A stretch of DNA of 64,000 nt, from the NCBI RefSeq assembly GCF_040958095.1, contig NC_091152.1, positions 14,666,266-14,730,265 on the forward strand, read 5' to 3'. Origin of the DNA: Procambarus clarkii. Taxonomy: Eukaryota > Arthropoda > Malacostraca > Decapoda > Cambaridae. The notes beneath the pieces are model-generated. The model worked only from the letters and a program-made list of their open reading frames with translations, was not told where the DNA came from and did not search any database. Shown piece by piece: positions 16,519-58,192 of the stretch. The stretch's first letter is position 1; every line of letters begins with the position of its first letter. The position numbers and the translations under genes were made by a program.

Positions 16519-16608
16519 GTGTGTGTGTGTGTGTGTGTGTGTGTGTGTGTGTGTGTGTGTGTGTGTGTGTGTGTGTGTGTGTGTGTGTGTGTGTGTGTGT
16601 GTGTGTGT
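16519..16608. repeat. (GT)n microsatellite
   Basis: An uninterrupted GT tract abutting the 3' end of the antisense SINE-A that follows. Confidence 0.95.
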
Positions 16609-16609
16609 A

Positions 16610-16892
16610 TTAACCTAGTTGTGCTTGTGGGGGTTGAGCTCTGCTCTTTCGGCCCGCCTCTCAACTGTCAATCAATCAACTGTTCCTAACTACTAATTTT
16701 TTTCCCCACTCCACACACACACACAGGAAGCTGCTTGTAACAGCTGTCTAACTCCCAGGTACCTATCAACTGCCAGGTAACAGGTGCATCAGTGTGAAAG
16801 AAATTCTGCCCATTTTTGTTTCCGCCGGCGCCGGGAATCGAACCCCAGACCACAGGATTACGTATCTAGCGTGCTGTCCACTCAGCCACCAG
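16610..16892 (-). mobile_element. SINE-A full-length copy (tRNA head, body, tail type 1)
   Basis: On the minus strand the order is: a tRNA-like head with 'ggggttcgattccc' B-box, the body 'ggtacctgggagttagacag', a short (GT)n, an A-rich linker, then the tail 'ttgacagttgagaggcgggc' and 'cgaaagagcagagctcaacc'. The tail has the SINE-diagnostic 'gggccgaaagagc' instead of the LINE 'gggaccaaagagcc'. GT tracts on both sides correspond to CA in the sense direction. Confidence 0.85.
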
Positions 16893-17133
16893 TGTGTGTG
16901 TGTGTTTAGTAGCTAATCTTGGTCTCTCGTGTCAAGGAGCTTCGAGTGTGGTTAAGATTCTTCACATGTATCTCCACATATATGGTTGTCCACAGATGTA
17001 TGCTGTGTAGAATGTTACATATACAGTACATGAAACATATGTTAGAATGTAGCAATCAACATATGTAGAATGTTACATATGTTTGAATGTTCACACACTC
17101 AGATACTGTCTTCACGCATAGATGTAACAAAAA
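16893..17133. other. Spacer with repeated 'acatatgt' words
   Basis: 'catatgt(t)agaatgt' and 'agaatgttacatat' recur three to four times between about 16980 and 17085, a decayed local repeat. Confidence 0.5.
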
Positions 17134-17186
17134 GGAGGCCTGGTCGAGGACCGGGCCGCGGGGACGCTAAGCCCCGAAAACCTCTC
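17134..17186 (+). mobile_element. SINE-B tail fragment (type 2)
   Basis: Contains 'gaggcctggtcgaggaccgg' followed by 'gcggggacgctaagccccga'. Only the tail survives. Confidence 0.8.
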
Positions 17187-17705
17187 AATAAGGAGCTTTT
17201 GTTGATGTTTTGGGGATGAAGGGTTCTGGTCTGTGTTACACCTTATAATTGTTTATTGTGGGTCAAGTTCCTTCGGGTTAGATCTAAGCTCTTGAGCCGC
17301 CAGGCTGTGGTCGTGGGGCGTCTCAGCTTGGCGTCATCTTCCCAGCGGCGAGTCTTATATCTTCCTGATCGTCTTCCACACCTATCCTGGCTTGCTGTAG
17401 CAGTCTGATGTTTATTGGTTGTATGTTCAGGAATCCCTTCCTCCCACCTCAAAAAATTCTCCCCCCCGCCCGAATCCCATTTCCCCCTCCCACCACCTAG
17501 CTACAAAGGCTCCCCTGCTCTTACACTTTACAACAGACCTCCCACGGGAGTTTAACCGCTGGATCGAGTAATTCGCACGTCCACGAACGCCTCTCGGGCG
17601 AGTCTCTGCTCACGAACGGAATCGTAATCCTCACTCAGTACCCAAGAAAATGTTTTCATAAGTAATTTCAAATGCAGGGGTGTAAAAACGTGGGGGTGGG
17701 GGGGG
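17187..17705. other. Unassigned spacer
   Basis: Unique DNA. The minus strand has an open 69-codon frame (17243-17452) rich in Arg, Thr and Lys; no family is recognised and coding status is not supported. Confidence 0.4.
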
Positions 17706-18633
17706 AGCTGTGACATGTAGGGGTGGAGAGAGCTGTGACATGTAGGGGTGGAGAGAGCTGTGACATGTAGGGGTGGAGAGAGAGAGAACTGTGAGATGTA
17801 GGGGTGGAGAGAGCTGTGACATGTAGGGGTGGAGAGAGAGAGAACTGTGAGATGTAGGGGTGGAGAGAGCTGTGACATGTAGGGGTGGAGAGAGAGAGCT
17901 GTGAGATGTAGGGGTGGAGAGAGAGAGCTGTGAGATGTAGGGGTGGAGAGAGCTGTGACATGTAGGGGTGGAGAGAGAGAGAACTGTGAGATGTAGGGGT
18001 GGAGAGAGCTGTGACATGTAGGGGTGGAGAGAGAGAGCTGTGAGATGTAGGGGTGGAGAGAGAGAGCTGTGAGATGTAGGGGTGGAGAGAGCTGTGACAT
18101 GTAGGGGTGGAGAGAGCTGTGACATGTAGGGGTGGAGAGAGCTGTGACATGTAGGGGTGGAGAGAGAGCTGTGACATGTAGGGGTGGAGAGAGCTGTGAC
18201 ATGTAGGGGTGGAGAGAGCTGTGACATGTAGGGGTGGAGAGAGCTGTGACATGTAGGGGTGGAGAGAGCTGTGACATGTAGGGGTGGAGAGAGCTGTGAC
18301 ATGTAGGGGTGGAGAGAGCTGTGACATGTAGGGGTGGAGAGAGCTGTGACATGTAGGGGTGGAGAGAGCTGTGACATGTAGGGGTGGAGAGAGAGACTGT
18401 GACATGTAGGGGTGGAGAGAGCTGTGACATGTAGGGGTGGAGAGAGCTGTGACATGTAGGGGTGGAGAGAGCTGTGACATGTAGGGGTGGAGAGAGCTGT
18501 GACATGTAGGGGTGGAGAGAGCTGTGACATGTAGGGGTGGAGAGAGAGAGAACTGTGAGATGTAGGGGTGGAGAGAGCTGTGACATGTAGGGGTGGAGAG
18601 AGAGAGAACTGTGAGATGTAGGGGTGGAGAGAG
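17706..18633. repeat. 25-bp minisatellite (gctgtgacatgtaggggtgg)
   Basis: About 36 units. Two types alternate: a 25-bp 'gctgtgacatgtaggggtgg' unit and longer 27-29-bp units with extra GA and 'gagatgtagg'. The centre (about 18090-18535) is nearly pure 25-bp units, while the edges mix types, suggesting homogenisation from the middle. Minus-strand frames (SSLHPYMSQL) are repeat translations. Confidence 0.95.
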
Positions 18634-18790
18634 CAGGACAGTCGTAGCAGATAACAACATTCACAAAGAGCATTAGACTCCACTTCGACAGGAAAAAATC
18701 TTTCAATAAAATTAGAACCCAAATTCAGTTGGTGATCGCTGTTAACCATGGCGGGTGATGATTGTGGACCAGGAAAATTTAGCGGGACAG
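18634..18790. other. Unassigned spacer
   Basis: Unique DNA with no recognised feature. Confidence 0.5.
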
Positions 18791-55903: not shown

Positions 55904-55988
55904 GTGTGCGTGTGTGTGTGTGTGTGTGTGTGTGTGTGTGTGTGTGTGTGTGTGTGTGTGTGTGTGTGTGTGTGTGTGTGTGTGTGTG
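55904..55988. repeat. (GT)n microsatellite
   Basis: A GT tract; 'ccgagccacggtac' and nearby CA runs follow. Confidence 0.95.
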
Positions 55989-56936
55989 CTCTGGGCGGTG
56001 GGAGAGTACGGAGCCCCGGTACCGAGCCACGGTACAGGGGACACACACACACACACATCTACGGTGGTACATGGTACATCAACACACACACCTACGGTGC
56101 CTCAGGCAGGAAAAATAACGGGCGATAAATTGTGATGATAAATGAGAATTTGCTGGCGCGAGATGGGAGAGACGGCGGTGTGGAATAGGAGTGGAAGGGG
56201 TGGTGTGAAATAGAGGGAAGGGGCAGCAGTATGGAGTGGGAGGATGGAAGGGTTGAGAGATGGGGAGCGGGGAGAGTAGCACCACATAAAACGTGAACCC
56301 GCCAAACACACACCGAAACTACGACGTTGGTACAACGTTCGAACAAGTTTTAACACCTCCTAACCAGTTATAACAACTTATATAGCAAGTTGTAACAACG
56401 TTCTAATACGTCATAAACACGTTAAGCCAAGATGTAACAACTTTATTACAAGTTGTAACAAGCGGAAAATAGAGACAGTTTCGGTTTGTGTTTCCAAGGA
56501 AGCTGATTAGGATAAAGATGCCATAGAGATGAGTGACTGGAGAGCCAAACACGGCCCAGGTGCATGGAAGAGACGGGGAGAGAGGGGGGGGGGGGTTAGA
56601 GAAGACGGAGGAGACGAGGAGTTAAAGAAGAGGAAAAGTAAATAATGAGGGATAAACACTTAATAAGCAGCAGAGATAAAGTTCTCAAATTTCAAACACA
56701 AATATATGCATAAAAAGAGTGCCCAAGGAGCTGACTCAGACGCCAGCACATTTACAAGATGTCTCTCAAGACTTGTTTACACTTACACAATTACTCGCAT
56801 ACTCACCCCATCTCCCCCCTCACCCCCTAACCTCACTGGGGGAACAGGACCCCCCCCATCTCCCAACATGCACACACTGGAAAACATATACCCACTTTCC
56901 CCAGTGCCCCCACACTGGGACACACACACACAAACG
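55989..56936. other. Spacer with 'gttgtaacaa' motif cluster
   Basis: Between about 56330 and 56460 the words 'gttgtaacaa', 'gttataacaa' and 'gatgtaacaa' recur several times at irregular spacing, an old decayed repeat. The rest is C-rich or unique; no gene recognised. Confidence 0.5.
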
Positions 56937-56993
56937 GTTAAGAGGCGGGACCAATGAGCCAGAGCTCAACCCCCGCAAGCACAACTAGATAAA
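56937..56993 (+). mobile_element. LINE tail fragment (type 1) between CA tracts
   Basis: 'acggttaagaggcgggacca', 'atgagccagagctcaacccc' and 'gcaagcacaactag' with CA repeats just before and after. Confidence 0.8.
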
Positions 56994-57524
56994 CACACAC
57001 ACACCTGCCCAGAACGTTCATTTAACAAAAAAAAACTCCTACCCCCCACACGGAAAAATATACATATCCCCCCTAGCCTCCGAACGCACCCTCATTGGGT
57101 ACACCCCACTTCCCCCTTCCCCACAACACCCCTTTTAACTAGAGAACAAGCAACCCCCCTCCCCCATCATCCCCTCACCCCCCCATACTAGCAAACACTC
57201 CCCTCCTTCCCCACCTCCACATAACGTATGCAATAACATGGACATAATTGACGATAACTCGACCCTCAGCCGAACATATCCGCCAAATGTCTGAAAACAA
57301 TCACAGGAGAAATAACCTCCCTCGAGAAATATGATCATTGCTCCGCTCCTTGATTTGTTGAACACCTGAAATATGGTCATAAAGCCAATTGTGAGAGGGA
57401 CGCCCAGGAAGTTATTCTCACAGTTACTATTATTATCGAGTAAAAAATATGAGAACTTTCCATTTGCTTACGACTTATTCAACTTCGTTTCGCTTCGTTT
57501 TCTTGTGGCAATTATACACACACG
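56994..57524. other. C-rich spacer
   Basis: 'ccccacttcccccttcccc' type sequence then unique DNA; no gene recognised. Confidence 0.5.
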
Positions 57525-57648
57525 CGCACGCACACACACACACACACACACACACGCGCGCACATACACACACACACACACACACACACACACACACACA
57601 CACACACACACACACACACACACACACACACACACACACACACACATA
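57525..57648. repeat. (CA)n microsatellite
   Basis: A CA tract with CG interruptions at the left. Confidence 0.95.
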
Positions 57649-57655
57649 CACTTTT

Positions 57656-57779
57656 AGAGCCCAATAGGCTCAGGAACCTGTACACCTGTTTATAGACGGT
57701 TGAGAGGCGAGACCAAAGAGCCAGAGCTCAACCCCCGCAAGCACAATTAGGTGAGTTCACACACACACACACACACACA
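57656..57779 (+). mobile_element. LINE tail fragment (type 1) plus CA tract
   Basis: 'gagcccaataggctcaggaa', 'gcgagaccaaagagccagag' and 'cacaattaggtgagttcaca' followed by about 22 bases of CA. The CA tract leads straight into the next LINE copy. Confidence 0.85.
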
Positions 57780-58192
57780 ACTGAGAGGTATGAGCTACGA
57801 GGAGAGACTACGGGAATTAAACCTCACGTCACTGGGAGACAGAAGAGTTAGAGGGGACATGATCACCACATACAAGATTCTCAGAGGAATTGATAGAGTA
57901 GATAAAGACAGACTATTTACTACAAGGGGCACACGCACTAGGGGACACAGGTGGAAACTGAGTGCCCAAATGAGCCACAGAGATATTAGAAAGAACTTGT
58001 TTAGTGTCAGAGTGGTTGACAAATGGAATGCATTAGGCAGTGATGAGGTGGAGGCTGACTCCATACACAGCTTCAAGTGTAGATATGATAGAAGCCAGTA
58101 GGCTCAGGAACCTGTACATTAGTTGACTGGCCGTTGAGAGGCGGGACCAAAGAGCCAGAGCTCAACCCCCGCAAGCACAATGAGGTAAGTAC
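57780..58192 (+). mobile_element. LINE 3' end with intact C-terminal coding segment
   Basis: Open from the 5' break to a stop at 58099-58101: MSYEERLRELNLTSLGDRRV, RGDMITTYKILRGIDRVDKD, TRGHRWKLSAQMSHRDIRKN and [18 protein letters not shown]. The 3' UTR follows with the type-1 tail 'gggaccaaagagccagagct' and 'aggtaagtac'. It is close to 25021-25540 at the protein level with scattered replacements, so they are separate insertions of one family. Confidence 0.9.

Follow-up and report, generated by a model that had tools for sequence, protein, structure and literature searches.

Whether retrotransposons make microsatellites or land in them is the question addressed here. Mino, a long interspersed element (LINE) of the R1 clade, is found in AC repeats (Kojima and Fujiwara 2003, cited in PMC3124438), and the Togen families of fish are specific for (TG)n microsatellites; the passage on Togen in PMC4640811 treats them among NeSL-related families, the NeSL clade being listed with restriction-like endonucleases. 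The target-specific families covered there are mostly early-branched or belong to Tx1 or R1, and among clades with an apurinic/apyrimidinic endonuclease (APE) the account in PMC13295347 gives site-specific LINEs in Tx1 and R1 only. Short interspersed elements (SINEs) are called rare in the genomes covered by the relevant part of PMC10454600, with a recent peak in two Procambarus species. Here, we have analyzed a LINE and the transfer RNA (tRNA)-headed SINEs that share its tail in a 64-kb stretch of Procambarus clarkii (NC_091152.1, positions 14,666,266–14,730,265; the whole stretch, 64,000 nucleotides, is called the window below) and in the genome (4.03 Gb, 2,308 contigs). Our results suggest that this LINE, which by its predicted domains is of the APE type, and its SINEs very probably have a preference for inserting into CA/TG tracts that already exist, in such a way that CA reads in the sense of the element.

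The closest systems, as described in the passages cited, resemble this pair only in part. Like Mino, the present LINE has a CA/AC microsatellite as target; Mino belongs to the R1 clade and the passage on it in PMC3124438 mentions no SINE partner, whereas the present LINE was found without a C-terminal CCHC motif. A CA/TG target is also shared with Togen, but its NeSL-related context differs from the PF14529 endonuclease of the present LINE. In lepidopteran RTE elements, LINE 3′ ends are likewise associated with microsatellites, an association attributed there to slippage during retrotransposition (PMC2887409), whereas here CA is already present at the empty sites of a single host family. The SaTar elements known from guayule and rice are similar in being microsatellite-associated and in forming non-nested linear arrays; they are, however, non-autonomous Mu-like DNA transposons targeted to microsatellites (PMC5907723), and not a LINE with SINEs. 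Finally, transposable elements lie beside simple sequence repeats (SSRs) in penaeid shrimp, where the elements were inferred to carry SSRs, with SSR expansion (PMC7878876), whereas here pre-existing CA received the elements. In our literature search, which had most subscription journals outside it, we did not find this combination of a LINE and SINEs described from CA repeats.

CA tracts beside the insertions

Flanks were read in the sense of each element, and a CA or GT run of at least 8 nt adjoining it was scored. The window contains 12 insertions with the tail common to the LINE and the SINEs (type-1 tail), and script scoring of their oriented flanks gave 5′ CA in nine, 3′ CA in eight, CA on both sides in seven and on neither side in two; GT in sense was seen in none of the 12. 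Twenty 10-kb stretches at seeded random places on contigs 1–90, within the first 18 Mb of each (200 kb in total), served as control. Here 46-nt windows with a run of at least 8 nt made up 0.6% for CA and 0.6% for GT, compared with 2.8% and 1.7% in the 64-kb window, and within the 18 nt before a position (CA)5, (TG)5 and (GA)5 occurred in 0.17%, 0.17% and 0.20%, respectively. Even at a background of 2.8%, nine 5′ CA tracts among 12 insertions correspond to P ∼2e-12, copies being treated as independent.

All nine tails listed in the sequence-only reading (5993, 16610, 25631, 33401, 48242, 49255, 56937, 57656 and 57780) do adjoin a CA tract in the element's sense. It had also described most copies as having CA on both sides, which is borne out by seven of the nine (49255 has CA 3′ only and 57780 5′ only under the 8-nt rule) and by all three full-length SINEs (16609–16891, 25631–25919 and 48242–48543). 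Of its two exceptions, 45281 lacks adjoining CA and the copy at 25021 has CA directly 5′ and none 3′; a further CA-free insertion at 39498–39566 had been left off that list.

For a larger sample, 101 tail records were oriented, their 5′ ends were sought with LINE and SINE references, and they were then grouped by hand. In this way 51 of the 101 records yielded 44 insertions with a resolved 5′ end; eight (records 2, 10, 22, 42, 59, 81, 87 and 96) were unresolved, and 43 were set aside with the 5′ end beyond the fetched stretch or at the reference start (record 87 is counted twice, giving a sum of 102). Record 50, whose state was 'reference start', was taken as resolved by hand, and manual placement was also used for the 5′ boundary in records 25 and 50 and for the 3′ stretch in record 34. 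The hand grouping replaced an automatic table of 5′ flanks, which had merged separate insertions via their CA tails. The longer of two LINE references was used; with the shorter one, some long copies (L016 minus strand, L030 and L008) seemed CA-free.

Among the 44 insertions, 5′ CA was found in 27, 5′ GT in two, 3′ CA in 23 and 3′ GT in none, against the background of 0.6–2.8%; CA stood on both sides in 17, 5′ only in 10, 3′ only in six and on neither side in 11. The two 5′ GT cases were L016, which has CA too, and L081, with GT alone. The proportion with 5′ CA was 19/31 for LINE and 8/13 for SINE insertions. It should be noted that 13 of the 44 loci had been selected by their similarity to a SINE query containing a short CA stretch. 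The 31 insertions not picked in this way showed 5′ CA in 19, 5′ GT in two and 3′ CA in 19 (both sides 14, 5′ only five, 3′ only five, neither seven), and those of them outside the window had 5′ CA in 10 of 19.

Strand bias was then measured in the whole genome. The 21-base tail core has 22,154 exact copies, its reversed control none, and a scan of viral contigs for the core gave no match; 4,448 cores (20.1%) run directly into CACACACACAC. The 17-base head of SINE-A has 20,098 exact copies, 10,110 of them on the counted strand. With gapped patterns a forward site was listed once per register and a reverse site once among the rows listed, and reverse counts alone were compared. In sense, (CA)5 lay within 8 bp 5′ of the SINE-A head in 1,714 of the 10,110 copies (17.0%) and (TG)5 in 33 (0.33%). 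Two places within the LINE body, where an adjoining tract marks a 5′-truncated copy, gave CA:TG ratios of 122:7 (junction 1) and 229:5 (junction 2), and (GA)5 at junction 1 occurred genome-wide in neither the forward (0) nor the reverse (0) orientation. The percentages are rough and are not event counts, as a perfect (CA)5 was demanded and later duplicates of one insertion are included. Genome-wide CA enrichment and strand bias, which the sequence-only reading had named beforehand as its test, were both observed (1,714:33, 122:7 and 229:5), with a bias of 17:1 to 52:1 over the SINE-A head and the LINE junctions. Its wording that CA is consistent and always in the same orientation, while true of the tails it listed in the window, is too strong genome-wide, where 11 of the 44 insertions were CA-free and two of the 44 had 5′ GT.

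Chance alone, in the form of a CA-rich genome that produces adjoining tracts without any preference, or of elements that survive only at CA, is hardly credible as an explanation. CA tracts are indeed denser in the window than in the control (35 in 64 kb compared with 21 in 200 kb), but the background falls far short of what would be needed, and a strand bias of this size would follow from neither chance nor survival. A different proposal is that the tail end (GTGAGTACACAC) seeds a CA tract that is grown by slippage during or after reverse transcription, CA being the result of the insertion. Tails do end in ACAC in many copies, six of the 44 insertions have CA 3′ only, and RTE elements of Lepidoptera have been reported to make microsatellites in this manner, according to the passage in PMC2887409. 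However, seeding leaves unexplained both the 5′ CA of 27 insertions and the strand bias seen 5′ of the points where LINE copies are truncated, and we consider it improbable; because CA sits 5′, where the tail cannot supply it, seeding is not the main cause.

Insertions also follow one another on the same strand. A same-strand tail end lay no more than 260 bp upstream in 12 of the 44 insertions, and in eight of these (records 12, 25, 28, 50, 77, 85, 92 and 94) the two were separated by CA with a run of 8 nt or longer; records 27, 66 and 80 had no such run next to the element, and the neighbor of record 4 was 226 bp off, with unrelated sequence between. All eight neighbors of the tail-to-SINE-head kind were on the same strand (five are taken as one duplicated event). 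A single opposite-strand 5′ neighbor was seen, in a head-to-head pair in L081, no script scan having been made for such pairs. Two chains in the window run through a common CA tract, namely SINE-(CA)-LINE at 25919–25022 and LINE-(CA)-LINE at 57652–58191. Such head-to-tail chains could arise because a CA tail would itself be an oriented target.

Empty and filled sites in one host repeat family

On its 5′ side, the LINE copy in L061 is flanked by a host repeat that occurs many times; a first look gave 244 candidates, and 40 members were scored. The site was read in all 40 scored members (L061 and L074, then batches of 20, 10 and 8), which were classed by eye as empty, expanded, ambiguous or filled. 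In 32 of the 40 it was empty, with a CA-rich site whose longest run had 3–7 CA units and behind which the host sequence continued. L108 was free of insertion and had 41 CA units, and L095 and L110, with long CA plus other sequence, were ambiguous. Five members were filled, all with CA in sense, and are taken as three events, two LINE and one SINE. L061 and L074 are taken as one duplicated LINE insertion; L091 holds a LINE relative with a different cut point, preceded by 87 CA units (plus strand; it matches the L030 LINE at 75% over 89 bases); and L092 and L111 hold one duplicated SINE (81/81 bases alike; 83–84% to the window SINEs, plus strand). The L092 SINE could be read through on both sides: its tail end ...ACTAGGTGA meets host ACACAAACAGTCACTCAG directly, without CA expansion 3′, and the same host ACACAAACAGTCACTCAG follows the CA-rich stretch in the empty member L099. 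Many similar scored members of this host repeat (L091–L128), with its short internal CA stretch, lie on contig 35.

At this site the CA stretch preceded the insertions, and LINE and SINE use the site alike. Since empty members carry CA at the site that is filled elsewhere, CA is targeted and tract growth is secondary; since CA lengths differ between filled members (5 to 87 units) and empty ones, growth is a separate process. The sequence-only reading had offered targeting and seeding as alternatives, and targeting is favored by the 5′ CA, the strand bias and the CA at empty sites. The same three observations contradict seeding as the sole cause, and a SINE read on both sides without 3′ CA expansion does not fit it either. 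CA growth does occur, as indicated by the long tracts of filled members and by that of one empty member, a point that seeding would also predict.

The host repeat bears on another explanation as well, template jumping, in which the reverse transcriptase (RT) would leave the element RNA and copy the CA tail of a second RNA, giving 5′ CA in sense without targeting. The same strand bias and the same-strand chains would be expected from it. On the other hand, the 5′ CA of the L092/L129 SINE belongs to the host repeat and is present in empty members too, and CA-free insertions suggest that CA is dispensable in the tail RNA; template jumping thus appears very improbable.

Several observations weigh against the preference for CA tracts. 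Because 11 of the 44 insertions have CA on neither side and six have it 3′ only, the preference is partial and no rule. Perfect (CA)5 within 8 bp was found at only 17% of SINE-A heads, and adjoining CA at 20% of tail cores; because many copies are later duplicates of one insertion, genome counts do not equal independent events. In line with this, eight of 60 contig-1 tail copies (L033, L034, L037, L046, L047, L052, L053 and L069) resemble one insertion duplicated with its flanks, so that copy counts overstate insertions. The empty sites come from one host repeat family, in which one filled event was read on both sides, other repeats have taken the place of the 3′ host side in L061, and the insert of L091 matches the LINE copy used for comparison at just 75%. 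When the flanks of other insertions were checked, most had no further copies in the fetched sequence, and no clean second empty-site family was found among the matches listed. A LINE copy in L045/L043 lies in a repeat that is also present in L014, where CA is missing from the junction; this is an insertion or rearrangement contrary to the CA preference. Within the window, two insertions are CA-free: a LINE tail with an inverted self-copy at its 5′ end (39498–39600, minus strand; insertion 39498–39566) and a LINE fragment (45281–45548, plus strand) without an adjoining perfect CA tract, whose 5′ side is mixed CT/CA/TA. In the former, the inverted copy of the tail's own start precedes the tail and resembles a 5′ inversion. 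Targeting of CA is, on these data, a preference of partial strength.

Domains, tails and copies in the window

In L030 (642–4345, minus strand), a LINE copy with the type-1 tail, a PF14529 endonuclease (E=4.4e-9) lies upstream of the first part of a PF00078 RT (E=2e-7) on the same strand. The frames of L030 are broken, and the domain pieces were searched apart, with the later RT part searched on L016. In the PDB, the L030 RT piece matched reverse transcriptases, chiefly LINE-1 ORF2p (E ∼2e-6 to 4e-6), the L016 RT piece gave one weak, unrelated match, and the endonuclease piece gave no match up to E=1. Judging from these predicted domains, the LINE is an APE-type retrotransposon without long terminal repeats (non-LTR). 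A C-terminal CCHC motif in ORF2 is a feature of the R1 clade. CxxC, and hence CCHC, is absent from the two LINE C-terminal sequences checked (294 aa in L016 and 143 aa in the window), and the hint of an R1 affinity in the sequence-only reading is not upheld despite the APE-type endonuclease and RT. In appearance the open reading frame (ORF) of the LINE is CR1-like, which would be a tentative clade placement.

LINE copies are 5′-truncated with a common 3′ end, and their tails align well with those of the SINEs, so that this 3′ end is common to both. Two SINE-A heads were called tRNA-Thr. The tails mostly finish in TAGGTGAGTA or TAGGTGAATA, at times doubled before CACA. A second tail type with the same ending occurs in the same genome (L079, L054 and L003; window 45000–45084). 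In the tail stem, six predicted pairs were compared in 30 tails and none had changed on both sides; the pairs are nearly constant and thus uninformative on structure. Some further features of these sequences were noticed. In L050 and L070, (GA)n is expanded within the LINE body where other LINE copies hold a short GAGAGAGAG run. L029 contains two RT-like ORFs of 412 aa in opposite orientation within one 10-kb stretch, one from ∼1981 on the plus strand and one on the minus strand, which we take to be Penelope-like. At G000:C1:23687497-23687702 the minus strand has eight repeats of the 17-base SINE-A head at a spacing of 27 bases, as though the head had turned into a minisatellite.

The first copy in the window is a 5′-truncated LINE 3′ end whose type-1 tail has additional tail units (5994–6095, plus strand), which stands between a (CA)28 tract in element sense at its 5′ side (5938–5993) and a (CA)21 tract at its 3′ side (6096–6137), both on the plus strand. 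On the minus strand, a full-length, tRNA-headed SINE with type-1 tail, which we named SINE-B (16609–16891), has a short CA tract in sense 5′ (16892–16905) and a longer stretch 3′ (16518–16608). Farther on, also on the minus strand, a full-length SINE-A (25631–25919) with CA on both its 5′ and 3′ sides is linked by a CA tract in sense (25543–25630) to a 5′-truncated LINE (25022–25541); the latter thereby adjoins at its 5′ side the tract common with the SINE, and it has no CA 3′. A LINE fragment with a broken tail (33401–33604, plus strand) follows a CA tract (33239–33400, plus strand) and is succeeded by ∼6 CA units.

The second full-length SINE-A (48242–48543, plus strand), with a head called tRNA-Thr, lies between CA tracts at 48137–48241 (5′) and 48544–48563 (3′) on the same strand. 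It is followed by a 5′-truncated SINE on the minus strand (49255–49337) that has CA 3′ only, in sense (49152–49254, minus strand). The remaining copies are all on the plus strand. A short LINE tail fragment (56919–57003) has short CA tracts at both sides; a 5′-truncated LINE fragment with type-1 tail (57652–57757) lies 3′ of a CA tract (57516–57651) and is joined head-to-tail by another tract (57758–57778) to a 5′-truncated LINE (57779–58191) with CA 5′ and weak CA 3′. Elsewhere in the window, there are long minisatellite arrays with differing units of 20–47 bp (13506–15438, 21711–24098, 28573–29665, 30075–32376, 40262–41534, 42927–43679 and 51367–52359) and an assembly gap of 500 N (20465–20964) directly ahead of a (CT)n tract.

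Proposed route of insertion and its meaning

A preference for CA tracts could be brought about as follows. The LINE endonuclease would nick the TG strand within a tract, and the TG 3′ end freed in this way might pair with the last bases of the tail RNA (...GUGAGUACAC), thereby priming reverse transcription. Such pairing would fix the orientation, with CA as the sense strand, and a SINE would follow the same route by carrying the LINE tail. The tracts may grow by slippage, either ahead of an insertion or following it, so that long tracts and more targets would result. The nick-and-prime route would also permit insertion elsewhere at a lower rate, as the CA-free copies require. We would go further only tentatively: it is plausible, without being the probable outcome, that a LINE of the APE type belonging to neither Tx1 nor R1 (CR1-like) evolved the targeting of CA tracts and passed it to SINEs via the common tail, the 3′ CA tract of each insertion being a new oriented target, so that LINE/SINE chains spread with their CA microsatellites.

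For one site of this LINE/SINE pair, empty members of a host repeat answer the question of what came first: it was the CA stretch. If phylogeny agrees, an APE-type LINE without the C-terminal motif of R1 would widen the list of site-specific LINEs. With respect to the SINEs, a common tail goes with the same choice of target. The pair is abundant in the genome, where the tail core has 22,154 exact copies and the SINE-A head 20,098, and multi-copy elements may often flank the CA microsatellite markers that are taken from such genomes.

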